Assembly: GCA_016191115.1 (NCBI GenBank)
Contig: JACPPG010000017.1
Coordinates: 1-64,000, forward strand
Direction of reading: 5' to 3'
DNA length: 64,000 nucleotides
DNA from: Planctomycetia bacterium
GTDB lineage: Bacteria; Planctomycetota; Planctomycetia; Pirellulales; JACPPG01
Numbering within the stretch: position 1 is the stretch's first letter; each line of letters opens with the position of its first letter. The position numbers and the translations under genes were made by a program. Of this stretch, positions 7,623-53,791 are shown piece by piece. Below the pieces are notes generated by a model. That model was not told the DNA's origin and ran no database searches. It saw only the letters and a list, made by a program, of their open reading frames with translations.

Positions 7623-7763
7623 CAGGGCCATTCTGTTTTTCAAAATGGCGAGGCGGGAAAATGGGACTGGCTCCGAGCATAAACAGCGCAAGTCCTTTCA
7701 GACCAACGTTGCGTCTCGGTGCCTGTCCACTTTCCCGCCGGTGCGCCGCCGGCAAGCTTGAAT
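7623..7763. mobile_element. MITE-like family 1, copy 1 (right end truncated)
   Basis: CAGGGCCATTCTGTTTTTCAAAATGGCGAGGCGGGAAAATGGGACTGGCTCCGAG...CGCCGGCAAGCTTGAAT; missing terminal TCTGTGAACGGCCCTG. Confidence 0.85.
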
Positions 7764-35362: not shown

Positions 35363-36712
35363 TCACCGCTTCACGTCATAGCACAAAAGTGCATCCTGCT
35401 CGCGCAGGTACAGCTTGCCGCCGGCTACGACGGGGTGCGGCCAGCTTGGTTTCTCAACGCCGGGAATCTCGAACGTGCCCTTGAGCTTGTATCCGTCGGG
35501 CGACGCGTCGATGAGTGCCATGGTGCCGTTTTCGTAGCGGAAGTAGAGCTCACCGTCGGCAAAGACGACGGCGGCCGATCCGCTCCCGGGCCCGCGCCCG
35601 CCGTTCCACCCGATGCGTCCGGTGAGGAACTCGACGCACACGGGAGAGCCGGCCCTGTGGCCGTTGCCGCCATACAAGTAGTCGCCCACGAGCACCAGCC
35701 CACCGTGATGGTTTTGCAGCGTGCGCGCGTCGAGGAAGTAGACCTCCTCGGCGTCGACGCCGTCGGCGGTGCGTTTCAGTTTCAAGAGCGCCGCGCCGGT
35801 CTGGTAGCCGGTCGAGCCGAAGACGTAGTCACCGCGGACGATGGGCGTGGGAATGTTGGCGGTGCGATTGGCCACGCGGTTGTAGCCCCACAAGTAACGC
35901 CCGTCGTCCGCGCGGATGCCGACCAGCCCCTTGCCCATAAGTTGCACGTATTGTCTCACGCCGGCTCCTTCGGAGACGACGATCGACGAGTAGGCCGCGC
36001 CGTCCTTCCCGCTGCCGCCCAGATCGGGCACGCTAGCCGTCCAGATCGTGCGGCCTGTCGTTTTGTCGAGCGCCACCAATGCGGCGTTCGGCCCGCCAGG
36101 CGTGCACACCAGGCGGTCGCCGTCCACGAGCGGCGACTCGCTGTAGCCCCAGTGCGACATCATTTTTCCACCGAAATCGCGGGCGAAGTTTTTCCGCCAG
36201 TGGACGTTGCCGGTCGCGGCGTCTAGGCACACCAGCTCGCCGCCGGTGCCGATAGCATAGAGGCGGCGGCCGTCGATCGTCGGAGTACACCGCGGACCGG
36301 CATACCCACCGCCCTGCCAGGATTTGCCGATCGGCGTAGCCCACAACGCGGCGCCATCCTTCAGGCCCAGCGCGATGACGAATTGCTCGCTGCCGCGGTC
36401 CCCCATGGTGTAGATGCGACCATCGGCGATCGAGATGCTCGAGTACCCTTCCCCCAGCCCACTGGCCTTCCAAGCCAATCGCGGCGGACGGGCGGACCAG
36501 TCGTTGGCGAGACCGGTTTCGGTCGCAACGCCGTCGCGGCTGGGTCCGCGCCATTGCGGCCAGTCGCCCACGCGGATGGCGGGACGGGCCGGGGCCGATC
36601 CGGCGGTCGGAGCGAAGACCTGGAGGCAAAGAAGGCAGACCGCCGACAGTGCGGCCTGAACGTTCCAGGTCCTCACCGTCGCGAATTCCCTACGCCGTTT
36701 ACACTTGCTCAT
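35363..36712 (-). CDS. PQQ-like beta-propeller repeat protein
   Basis: DWPQWRGPSRDGVATETGLANDWSARPPRLAWKASGLGEGYSSISIADGRIYTMG...DAATGNVHWRKNF. Confidence 0.9.
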   Translation of the reverse strand: MSKCKRRREFATVRTWNVQAALSAVCLLCLQVFAPTAGSAPARPAIRVGDWPQWRGPSRDGVATETGLANDWSARPPRLAWKASGLGEGYSSISIADGRIYTMGDRGSEQFVIALGLKDGAALWATPIGKSWQGGGYAGPRCTPTIDGRRLYAIGTGGELVCLDAATGNVHWRKNFARDFGGKMMSHWGYSESPLVDGDRLVCTPGGPNAALVALDKTTGRTIWTASVPDLGGSGKDGAAYSSIVVSEGAGVRQYVQLMGKGLVGIRADDGRYLWGYNRVANRTANIPTPIVRGDYVFGSTGYQTGAALLKLKRTADGVDAEEVYFLDARTLQNHHGGLVLVGDYLYGGNGHRAGSPVCVEFLTGRIGWNGGRGPGSGSAAVVFADGELYFRYENGTMALIDASPDGYKLKGTFEIPGVEKPSWPHPVVAGGKLYLREQDALLCYDVKR

Positions 36713-36893
36713 CGTGGTCGGATCTCCTTCGGAGGACTCGATTGGCGGCTGCCCCGGCAAGTGTCGCCTGACGCCTTGCCGACGGTCAATCCACCTAAAG
36801 CGCGCCGGTTCCGCGCCGCGCGTGCGCTCGGATAGCCCGGGAGTCCTTTTTCAAACCCCGCGCGGGCCGTACAAGTGTCGGCCAATCCGGCTA

Positions 36894-37017
36894 CGGGAGA
36901 GCTGCAAAGTCCGGGGTCTGGCTCATTTTTCGGCGCACGCGGTTCTCAATTCTTCCGAAGGACCTTCGGCCGAAAAATGTGCCTGACCCCCTCTCCCAGG
37001 ACTTTGCAGTTCTCCTG
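36894..37017. mobile_element. MITE-like family 2, copy 1 (124 bp) with 11-bp target duplication
   Basis: Foldback CGGGAGAGCTGCAAAGTCCGGGGTCTGGCTCATTTTTCGGC...GCCGAAAAATGTGCCTGACCCC...GACTTTGCAGTTCTCCTG; flanked by CAATCCGGCTA at 36883-36893 and 37018-37028. Confidence 0.88.
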
Positions 37018-37028
37018 CAATCCGGCTA

Positions 37029-37185
37029 CAGGGCCATCCTGTTTTTCAAAATGGCGAGGCGGGAAAATGGGACTGGCTCCGAGCATAAACAGCGCAAGCC
37101 CTTTCAGACCAACGTTTCGTCTCGGTGCCTGTCCCACCTTCCCGCCGGTGCGCCGCCGGCAAGCTTGAATCTGTGAACGGCCCTG
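37029..37185. mobile_element. MITE-like family 1, copy 3 (intact, 157 bp) with 10-bp target duplication
   Basis: CAGGGCCATCCTG...GAACGGCCCTG; flanked by AATCCGGCTA at 37019-37028 and 37186-37195. Confidence 0.92.
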
Positions 37186-37297
37186 AATCCGGCTATCCGC
37201 GCGTTGCAACTGTTCACCCCCTGGTGGTATACTCAGCCTGCTATTTTTAGGCCATTCTCTACGGCTTGGCGGCCCTTCCTGAATCAAGGAGAGAGAG

Positions 37298-39157
37298 ATG
37301 TTGCGCCTGGCGATTTGCGGAGTCGTGGCATGGGGTCTGGTCGTCGCTAGTTCGGCCGCCTTCGCGGCGGACGCAGTCAAGGATGCATCGGCCGCCCAGG
37401 TCGCGCCGGTGGCGATCGGCGGCCAGGTCGCGGACGTCACGTTCAAGGACATCCGCTACGCGGCGCACAATCTCAAGGACTTCGGCGAGAAGAAGGCGTA
37501 CGTCGTGGTCTTCACCACGCTCGACTGCCCGGTCGTGAAGCGCTACCTGCCGCGCGTCGTCGAGCTGGAAAAAGCCTATCGCAACCGCGACGTGCAATTC
37601 GTGTCGATGAACGTCGGCCCGAATGACCCGATGGTCGAAGTCGCCTACCAGGCGCTGCAGGTCGACGCGGAGTTCCCCTTCTGCAAGGATTTCGACGGCG
37701 ACGTGGCCCGCGCCATGGGCGCCGACCGCACGCCGCAGGTCGTCGTGCTCGACGGCGATCGCAAGCTGCGCTACCGCGGGCGGATCGATAGCCAGTTCCG
37801 CGTCGGCGGTGTGAAGCCCGACACGGGCCGCGAGGACCTTAAGGAAGCGATCGAGGACGTTCTGGCCGGCCGCGAGGTGAAGGTCGCCGAGACGCCGGTC
37901 GACGGCTGCCCGATCACATTCGCGAAGGTGACGCCGCCGGCCAAGCCGGTGACGTTTGCCGAGGACGTGGCGGCGGTGCTGCAGAAGAATTGCCAGGAAT
38001 GCCACCGCCCGAACGCCGAAGGCCCGTTCGCGCTGTTGAGCTACGAGGACGCGGTCGACCATGCCGAGACGATCGCGGAAGTGGTTAAGGAGCAGCGGAT
38101 GCCGCCGCTTTACGCCAGCCGGCAGCACGGCGATTTCGTTAACCTGCGCGGCCTGTCGCCCGAGGAGCGGACGTTGATCCTGAACTGGGTAGCCGGCGGC
38201 CGACAGCAGGGCGATCTCGCCAAGATGCCCCCCACGCCCAAATGGCCCGACAATCGCTGGCTGATCGGCGAGCCGGACCTGGTCGTTCAGATGCCCAACC
38301 GCGTCGAGCTGCCGGCCACGGGCTACGTGAAGTACAAGTACGTGGTGCTCCCGCACCGCTTTGAGGAAGACACGTGGATCACCGCCTGCCAAATCCTGCC
38401 GGAGAACAAGAGCGCCTTGCACCACTGCAACATGGCGTACATCGACCCGATCAAGGGCAAGTACTCCGATGCCCAGTTCATCACCGGCCAGGTGCCCGGC
38501 GGCATTCCCATGATTCTCGACAAGGGCGTCGGCTTCATGATTCCCAAGGGGAACGTGCTGGTGCTGCAAATCCACTACGTGACGACGGGCGAGCCAACCA
38601 CGGACCAGTCGAGCGTGGGCTTTGTGTTTGCCAAGGAGCCGATCAAGAAGCAGCTCAAGCACTTCCGCTGCCACAACGGCACGTTCGCCATCCCGCCGGG
38701 CGACGGGGCGCACCTGGTCGAGGCCAAGCGGACGTTCGCCAAGGATTCGACGCTGGTCGGCATGTTCAGCCACATGCACCTGCGCGGCAAGGACATGATC
38801 TTCAACGCCATCTATCCGGGCGGCGAAAAAGAGACGCTGCTGGCCGTGCCCAATTACAGCTTCGACTGGCAGATGTCGTACGTGTGGCGGCCAGGCGCCA
38901 AGAAGTTCCCGAAGGACACGGTGGTCGACGTCACGGCCCACTTCGACAACTCGTCGTTCAACCCCTACAACCCCGATCCCACCGTGACGGTGAAGGAAGG
39001 GGACCAGACGTTCGAGGAAATGATGTACGGTTTCGTCTTCTACACCGAGGACGACGAGAACCTGAACATCGCCGTCGACCCGAAAACGGGTCACGAAATT
39101 CATGCCGGCAAGGAAGCGTCGAACAAACCGGCAGCCGCCGCACAGGCGGGTGGGTAG
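37298..39157 (+). CDS. Secreted redoxin + cytochrome-c-like (CxxCH) + copper type II ascorbate-dependent monooxygenase-like fusion
   Basis: VVFTTLDCPVVKRYLPRVVELEKAY; CQECHRPNAEGPFALLSY; SALHHCNMAY; MFSHMHLRGKDM; YSFDWQMSY. Confidence 0.85.
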   Translation: MLRLAICGVVAWGLVVASSAAFAADAVKDASAAQVAPVAIGGQVADVTFKDIRYAAHNLKDFGEKKAYVVVFTTLDCPVVKRYLPRVVELEKAYRNRDVQFVSMNVGPNDPMVEVAYQALQVDAEFPFCKDFDGDVARAMGADRTPQVVVLDGDRKLRYRGRIDSQFRVGGVKPDTGREDLKEAIEDVLAGREVKVAETPVDGCPITFAKVTPPAKPVTFAEDVAAVLQKNCQECHRPNAEGPFALLSYEDAVDHAETIAEVVKEQRMPPLYASRQHGDFVNLRGLSPEERTLILNWVAGGRQQGDLAKMPPTPKWPDNRWLIGEPDLVVQMPNRVELPATGYVKYKYVVLPHRFEEDTWITACQILPENKSALHHCNMAYIDPIKGKYSDAQFITGQVPGGIPMILDKGVGFMIPKGNVLVLQIHYVTTGEPTTDQSSVGFVFAKEPIKKQLKHFRCHNGTFAIPPGDGAHLVEAKRTFAKDSTLVGMFSHMHLRGKDMIFNAIYPGGEKETLLAVPNYSFDWQMSYVWRPGAKKFPKDTVVDVTAHFDNSSFNPYNPDPTVTVKEGDQTFEEMMYGFVFYTEDDENLNIAVDPKTGHEIHAGKEASNKPAAAAQAGG

Positions 39158-44189: not shown

Positions 44190-44330
44190 CAGGGCCATTC
44201 TGTTTTTCAAAATGGCGAGGCGGGAAAATGGGACTGGCTCCGAGCATAAACAGCGCAAGTCCTTTCAGGCCAACGTTGCGTCTCGGTGCCTGTCCCACTT
44301 TCCCGCCGGTGCGCCGCCGGCAAGCTTGAA
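44190..44330. mobile_element. MITE-like family 1, copy 4 (right end truncated)
   Basis: CAGGGCCATTCTGTTTTTCAAAATGG...GGCAAGCTTGAA then divergence. Confidence 0.85.
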
Positions 44331-45637: not shown

Positions 45638-45786
45638 CACGGCGTTCTGTTTTTCAAAATGGCGAGGCGGGAAAATGGGACTGGCTCCGAGCATAAACAG
45701 CGCAAGTCCTTTCAGACCAACGTTGCGTCTCGGTGCCTGTCCCACTTTCCCGCCGGTGCGCCGCCATCCAGCTCGAATCTGTGAAT
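45638..45786. mobile_element. MITE-like family 1, copy 5 (degenerate ends)
   Basis: TTCTGTTTTTCAAAATGGCGAGGCGGGAAAATGGGACTGGCTCCGAG core conserved; terminal CAGGGCC/GGCCCTG decayed. Confidence 0.85.
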
Positions 45787-45988: not shown

Positions 45989-47197
45989 ATGGCCGAGAAA
46001 CCATCCGCTGCCCCCCCTGCTGCGCGACCCGGGCTTTCGACAATTGCCGTTCACGCCGGCGAGGATCGCCAGAAGCTCGGCGATGCGATGACCGACCCGA
46101 TCTTCTGTACGTCCACGTACACGTTCGCCGATACGCGGGCGGCAATCGACTTCATCGAACAAAAGCAGCCCCGCGAGGAGTACGGCCGCTACGGCAACCC
46201 TAGCGAAAAGGTCGTCGAGCGGAAGCTGGCCGCGCTCGACGGCGGAGAGGCCGCGCTACTGTTCGCCACCGGGATGTCGGCCTTCGTCGGCCTCTTGATG
46301 GCCCGCCTGAGTGCCGGCGACGAAGTCGTTTTCTTCGACGAGTGCTACCATCGCAGCCGCGAGTTCTGCACGAAGCACTTGTCGCGGTTCGGCGTCCGCA
46401 CGCGACAGGTGCCAGCGTGCGACTATGACGCGATGGAAGCCGCGATCACGCCTTCGACGAAGCTCTTGATCAGCGAGTCCCCGACCAACCCCCACCTGAG
46501 CGTCGTCGACCTGGAGCGGTTCGTGGCGATCGGCCGCCGGCACAAGATCGAGACGCTGATCGACGCCACGCTGGGGACGCCGTACAACGTCCGCCCGCTG
46601 GAGGCCGGCGTCGACTACGTGCTTCATTCCGCGACAAAGTATTTGGGCGGGCATAATGATCTCTTGGCCGGCGCGATTATCGCGACGACCGAGAAGCTGG
46701 AGCCGATCCGCAAGCTCCGCGGCATCATGGGCGCGATCAGCTCGCCCCACAATATTTACTTGCTCGAGCGCGGACTAAAAACGTTTCCGTTGCGGATGGA
46801 GCAGCACAATCGAAACGGGCAGGCCGTGGCTGAGTTCCTGGCCAGTCACCCCAGGATCGAGCGAGTGTACTACCCCGGCCTGGCCGACCACCCGTACCAC
46901 CAAATCGCCCGCGCGCAGATGCGGGGCTTTGGCGGCCTGGTGACTTTCGCGGTGAAGGGCGCAGACTGGCGGGCGACGGCGCGGGTGGTCGATGCGGTGC
47001 GTCTGCCGCGGATCGGGCCGAGCCTGGGGGGCGTCGAATCGCTGATCGAGCAGCCGCTGGTGATGAGCTACTACGAGTGCACGCCCGAGGAGCGCCGGCG
47101 CTTCGGCATCGCGGACAATATGATCCGCCTATCGTGCGGCGTGGAGAACACTGAGGACTTGATCGCCGACTTGGCGCAGGCGCTCGACGCCGTGTAA
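45989..47197 (+). CDS. Cystathionine gamma-synthase / O-acetylhomoserine sulfhydrylase family PLP enzyme
   Basis: GLSTIAVHAGEDRQ, YGRYGNPSEKVVERKLAALDGGEAALLFATGMSAF, SATKYLGGHNDLLAGAII, RLSCGVENTEDLIADL. Confidence 0.93.
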   Translation: MAEKPSAAPPAARPGLSTIAVHAGEDRQKLGDAMTDPIFCTSTYTFADTRAAIDFIEQKQPREEYGRYGNPSEKVVERKLAALDGGEAALLFATGMSAFVGLLMARLSAGDEVVFFDECYHRSREFCTKHLSRFGVRTRQVPACDYDAMEAAITPSTKLLISESPTNPHLSVVDLERFVAIGRRHKIETLIDATLGTPYNVRPLEAGVDYVLHSATKYLGGHNDLLAGAIIATTEKLEPIRKLRGIMGAISSPHNIYLLERGLKTFPLRMEQHNRNGQAVAEFLASHPRIERVYYPGLADHPYHQIARAQMRGFGGLVTFAVKGADWRATARVVDAVRLPRIGPSLGGVESLIEQPLVMSYYECTPEERRRFGIADNMIRLSCGVENTEDLIADLAQALDAV

Positions 47198-47509
47198 CGA
47201 AATAGCGGCCGAATGACCGGCAACACACCTGTGTGCCACGGCTTGACCGACCAGGGCAAGCCGTGCTGCGCCGGCACAACGCTCGCCATTGCGATCCACG
47301 TCGGTCACCGCTTCGCGCTGCTTCTGCGAAGCAGTGGCACCCGCGCGCTCGACGCCGTGTAACGAAATAGCGGCCGAATGACCGGCAACACACCTGTGTG
47401 CCACGGCTTGACCGACCAGGGCAAGCCGTGCTGCGCCGGCACAACGCTCGCCATTGCGATCCACGGTCACCGCTTCGCACTGTTTCTCTCGAAGCAGTGG
47501 CACCCGCGC
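47180..47509. repeat. 165-bp tandem duplication including the last codons and stop of the upstream gene
   Basis: GCGCTCGACGCCGTGTAACGAAATAGCGGCCGAATGACCGGCAACACACCTGTGTGCCACGGCTTG... at 47180 and again at 47345; contains CACGGCTTG-N11-CAAGCCGTG hairpin. Confidence 0.92.
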
Positions 47510-53651: not shown

Positions 53652-53791
53652 CAGGGCCGTTCACAGATTCAAGCTTGCCGGCGGCGCACCGGCGGGAAAG
53701 TGGGACAGGCACCGAGACGCAACGTTGGTCTGAAAGGACTTGCGCTGTTTATGCTCGGAGCCAGTCCCATTTTCCCGCCTCGCCATTTTGA
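53652..53791. mobile_element. MITE-like family 1, copy 6 (inverted; left end truncated)
   Basis: CAGGGCCGTTCACAGATTCAAGCTTGCCGG...CCCGCCTCGCCATTTTGA; reverse complement of other copies. Confidence 0.85.

Follow-up and report, generated by a model that had tools for sequence, protein, structure and literature searches.

Two different families of MITEs, E1 and E2, are systematically paired at common insertion targets in the genome of a Planctomycetia bacterium, and it is probable that both are moved by ISAs1-family transposases, which would follow a shared CAA/TTG target rule, insert the elements serially at the same target and be tethered there by the ends of the resident element. The pair that led to this finding lies in a stretch of 64,000 nucleotides from contig JACPPG010000017.1 (the window), where E2 (124 bp) and E1 (157 bp) adjoin at 36883-37195 and are bracketed by three copies of (C)AATCCGGCTA (Table 1). 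The order and coordinates of the two elements and of the three target copies, as given in the initial annotation, were confirmed from the letters. One of the readings offered there, that the second element had landed exactly at a target-duplication border, proved correct, and this is a genome-wide habit rather than a coincidence.

Read from 36872, the locus is made up of CAA, 8 bp, CAATCCGGCTA, E2, CAATCCGGCTA, E1, AATCCGGCTA, another 8 bp and TTG, which ends at 37206. The repeat flanking E2 is 11 bp (CAATCCGGCTA) and the repeat flanking E1 is 10 bp (AATCCGGCTA). A search of Rfam gave a single match near the locus, which was sub-threshold.

Table 1. Features of the E2/E1 pair and its neighbours, in window positions
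Feature	Position	Strand	Remark
PQQ beta-propeller gene	35363-36760	minus	left neighbour of the pair
Left target half-site CAA	36872-36874	+	separated by exactly 8 bp from the 11-bp target copy; motif from other loci
Target copy 1, CAATCCGGCTA	36883-36893	+	
E2, 124-bp MITE	36894-37017	+	19-bp terminal inverted repeats and inner hairpin
E2 inner hairpin, GGGGTCTGGCTCATTTTTCGGC / GCCGAAAAATGTGCCTGACCCC	36913-36990	+	
Target copy 2, CAATCCGGCTA	37018-37028	+	between E2 and E1
E1, 157-bp MITE	37029-37185	+	tips CAGGGCC...GGCCCTG
Target copy 3, AATCCGGCTA	37186-37195	+	
Right target half-site TTG	37204-37206	+	separated by exactly 8 bp from target copy 3; motif from other loci
Redoxin-domain gene	37298-39157	plus	right neighbour of the pair

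Two MITE families and their pairing

The genome is a draft of 6.03 Mb in 93 contigs. With up to 3 mismatches allowed, it contains 355 left ends of E1 and 249 terminal repeats of E2, the latter equal to about 125 copies, and 118 copies of E1 and 98 of E2, some complete and some partial, were gathered together with their flanks. Both families have the features of MITEs, being short, high in copy number, bounded by terminal inverted repeats and devoid of a transposase gene, for which their lengths of 157 and 124 bp leave no room. The terminal inverted repeat of E2 is 19 bp with the family consensus CAGGAGAACTGCAAAGTCC, and its left tip is decayed at the window locus (CGGGAGAGC versus CAGGAGAAC in the family). 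Folding involves nearly the whole length of E2 (z -8.6) and is weaker in E1 (z -3.1). Target-site duplications are locus-specific in most full single copies of either family, nearly always 10 bp and sometimes 9 or 11 bp in length, and the flanks of single copies mostly match at 9-10 of 10 positions. In another genome, G020, the E2 inner hairpin (GGGGTCAGGCACATTTTTCGGC...) is present but lacks ISAs1-type terminal repeats (L076, L083, L087, L090 and L094), as though E2 had captured an independent palindromic repeat.

Among the matches listed, 83 E2 copies retain the 19-bp terminal repeat intact, and 40 of them (48%) have an E1 no more than 25 bp away, against 0.28 pairs expected under uniform placement; the 83 copies were chosen by terminal repeat and almost all come from the first 100 matches listed. 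The nearest E1 lies at 26-400 bp in only 3 of 98 E2 copies, a set that includes loci fetched for being pairs. E2 stands to the left of E1 in 12 and to the right in 15 of the 27 complete pairs, occurs in either orientation, and is most commonly separated from E1 by 10 bp. Pairing of E1 with E2 is systematic in this genome.

Both elements have the same target within 2 bp in 16 of the 27 complete pairs, as read from the flanks, and the target sequence differs from locus to locus, as exemplified by TCAGCTTCTG at L002, CCGACCTGGC at L073 and CAACGCGCGC at L013, each of which is present three times. In five of the remaining complete pairs the duplications are offset and can be told apart, or one overlaps the tip of the partner; one pair (L025) shows the outer repeat only, and in 5 of the 27 there is decay or a contig end cuts the pair.

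A chain of three elements, E2-CGCAGGCTGT-E1-CCCAGGCTGT-E1, is located at G000 C86:54800-55150 (L254), and the only pair of neighbouring E1 copies found is the one in this chain. Fused elements, with one end of E1 and the other of E2, were also observed (L124, L128, L142, L169 and L176), several of them with matching outer flanks. Their assignment to a third family with an E1 left end and an E2 right end was rejected, the junctions read at L124, L142 and L169 all being different; such elements would fit later internal deletions inside pairs.

A palindromic target rule common to E1 and E2

Empty sites were rebuilt from 36 single E1 and 28 single E2 copies. The duplicated bases carry almost no information, and CAA at -11 is mirrored by TTG at +18, this motif occupying 37 of 128 half-sites, in both families, versus a mean of 1.7 at other positions. 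The two families share one palindromic target rule, CAA-N8-(10-bp duplication)-N8-TTG, and the window locus fits it on both sides. The rule recurs in relatives, where 9 of 34 half-sites agree compared with 0-2 at control positions (sites of E2-like elements from relatives together with E1-like ones from G015).

Bases 9-11 of the terminal repeats, counted from the tip inward, read TTC at both ends of E1 and CTG in E2, TTG in the ISAs1 IS of the same-genus genome G002 and in an E2-like end of G015, and TCG in the ISAs1 IS of G024. Scored as half-sites, these triplets rank at roughly the 89th to 99th percentile genome-wide. With training on one family, the motif scores the filled junctions of the other family as high as its empty sites, so insertion leaves the target intact.

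According to the mechanism that we favour, E1 and E2 would be non-autonomous and mobilised by ISAs1-family (DDE) transposases with one loose palindromic target rule, and they would insert separately, one after the other, at one target and each with its own duplication. The TTG, TTC or CTG at terminal-repeat bases 9-11 would sit in the place of a target half-site, and each duplicated copy would stay a target in the same register because the terminal repeat restores the half-site on both sides.

The motif alone predicts that about 0.2% of insertions would fall at the junctions of 400 residents, as opposed to the 48% seen, leaving a roughly 200-fold excess of pairing. It is unlikely that the elements inserted independently and met merely by shared target preference and by survival in a few harmless intergenic sites, with no attraction exerted by the resident. 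The CAA/TTG motif is indeed common to both families and the motif score does stay high at occupied targets, but even an accessible genome ten-fold smaller would keep the predicted value far below 48%, and hardly any E1 neighbours occur at 26-400 bp. Since the motif is far too weak by itself, tethering would be needed, and a transposase bound to the terminal repeat of the resident may be what holds the incoming complex. Counting against tethering, residents recognised by their own transposase should make E1-E1 pairs common, and just one was found; same-family tandems may mostly have been lost by recombination or collapsed in assembly, leaving the mixed pairs.

An extension of the tethering mechanism is possible, if somewhat doubtful, in which ISAs1 transposases would read one motif (TTG at bases 9-11) both in their own ends and in the target. 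Every insertion would then make two in-register targets, and with transposase held at resident ends, cross-family MITE stacks could grow into a self-propagating landing pad (compare the E2-T-E1-T-E1 chain of C86, T being the target).

Sequential insertion in either order

At L019, E2 was inserted second, because its duplication, CCTGCCCCCG, contains the last four bases of E1. The reverse order is seen at L046 and L137, where E1 came second, because its duplication includes 3 and 8 bases of the E2 tip, respectively. Mutations among the three target copies likewise point both ways (L181 and L179 versus L070, L154 and L178). The offset pairs and the tip-containing duplications therefore demonstrate sequential insertions, each element having its own duplication and either family being the newcomer.

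Movement of the pair as a composite unit through the outer ends of E2 and E1, in which only the outer repeats would be a true duplication, had been raised in the initial annotation and is very improbable. It is suggested at L025, where TGAGAAGAAC is the only repeat on both sides and the spacer CTGTGCACCG is unrelated, and the matching outer flanks around a 1-bp spacer at L012 also speak for it. In the 16 complete pairs with a common target, however, the spacer repeats the local target sequence and varies by locus, and E2 is seen to the left and to the right of E1 and in both orientations. As a general rule composite movement was rejected, with L025 as the sole exception, and it cannot explain the window locus because the spacer there is itself a target copy.

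Integration of both elements in one reaction, by a shared synaptic complex with the target copied between them, is hardly credible: it would agree with the frequency of exact triple targets, but one staggered cut yields two copies rather than three, and both the offset pairs and the duplications that hold a partner tip require two events. The chance that AATCCGGCTA is a wider tandem repeat, named as a refutation in the initial annotation, or a fixed target sequence is practically nil in spite of its three exact copies at the locus, as no repeat extends beyond the duplicated bases and the same elements are flanked by a different 10-mer at the other insertions examined. All exact copies of AATCCGGCTA in the window (three) are at the pair locus and the whole genome has only 7, so it is simply the target of the window locus itself; the target specificity that had been considered does not hold for AATCCGGCTA but does hold for the CAA/TTG pair 8 bp outside the duplication in both families.

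Transposase source, relatives and known systems

The ISAs1 family features CAGGG tips and 8-10-bp duplications. Genome G015, which belongs to the same order but to another family, has an ISAs1-family transposase gene with an interrupted frame (91.5 bits against a cut-off of 70, NF033564). The corresponding IS measures 1243 bp and is bounded by 18-bp terminal repeats, CAGGAGAACTGCAAAGTC, which match those of E2 at 18/18 positions. Judged by these terminal repeats common to an ISAs1-family IS, E2 would be an ISAs1-derived MITE. The ISAs1 IS of G024 is tipped by CAGGGC and flanked by a perfect 10-bp duplication; E1 resembles it in the CAGGGC tip and the duplication length, and resembles the ISAs1 type in the target rule. 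An IS carrying the complete E1 terminal repeat, which could be an autonomous partner of E1, was not found, and the genome's own assembly contains no complete ISAs1 IS but two fragments, one of them at a contig end. The same or sister ISAs1-family transposases may move both E1 and E2.

About 20 E1-like loci were read in G015, 4 of which have an E2-like end 10-11 bp away, and in 2 of these 4 the spacer is the duplication of the E1-like element itself (GACACTCTAG and GTCTGGCGGC). At the GTCTGGCGGC locus the CAA at -11 comes from the E2-like end and the TTG at +18 from the genome, and these half-sites are what the model predicts. At the sensitivity used, four species of the same genus yielded neither E1 nor E2. 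In a set of 400 genomes of the order, the pair pattern gave matches in G015 and one in G189 (by pattern match alone), and a scan of the whole collection gave one match in an unrelated candidate phylum, which is probably due to chance.

The nearest known systems are ISAs1-family IS and the MITEs derived from them, with which the elements described here have in common the CAGG tips, the duplications of about 10 bp and, for E2, the 18-bp terminal repeat of the G015 IS. The searchable ISAs1 literature held no account of serial pairing of two families at the same target or of the CAA-N8-TSD-N8-TTG rule. IS30 (and IS911) also target inverted repeats, IS30 with 2-bp duplications, forming IRL-IRR junctions beside a resident element of their own kind. 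In the present pairs, by contrast, the elements belong to different families and are parted by a duplicated target of ~10 bp, either one can lie on either side or come first, and the spacer between E1 and E2 is mostly a 9-12-bp target copy instead of a direct inverted-repeat junction.

The P element of Drosophila makes double insertions at one 8-bp target, a reuse also seen with E1 and E2. Another shared feature is its loose palindromic target motif (PMC7776569). The P element differs in being eukaryotic, with an 8-bp duplication and an unrelated transposase. Transposons often target each other and form nested IS conglomerates (PMC5756416), in which the resident is interrupted, whereas the second element described here lands beside the resident end in a fixed register.

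Target choice has been described only as loosely specific for many bacterial DDE transposases. The natural insertions analysed here provide a target rule, both clean and symmetric, for an IS family that has received little study, and this rule offers a reason why an occupied target remains a target. The ~200-fold excess would point to recognition of resident ends; the origin of stacks of different MITEs would thereby be explained, and the model of end-guided insertion becomes directly testable.

Several contig ends and many shortened E1 copies stop 135-142 bp into E1; some E1 junctions may be assembly seams, with same-family tandems collapsed. The pairing is independent of such seams, because assembly error cannot yield locus-specific triple targets at many loci. 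Four of the six E1 copies in the window (7623-7763, 44190-44330, 45647-45785 and 53652-53791) break off at 139-142 bp and have no second duplication, and contigs C2, C11, C15 and C36 end inside E1 at that same length. These four copies look like assembly seams (k-mer about 141), and the window may be misjoined there. The window also contains a 48-bp inverted repeat at 2036-2189 (94% complementary, 58-bp loop), perhaps another small element, and a 121-bp exact direct repeat at 47180-47465, the two starts of which are 165 bp apart.
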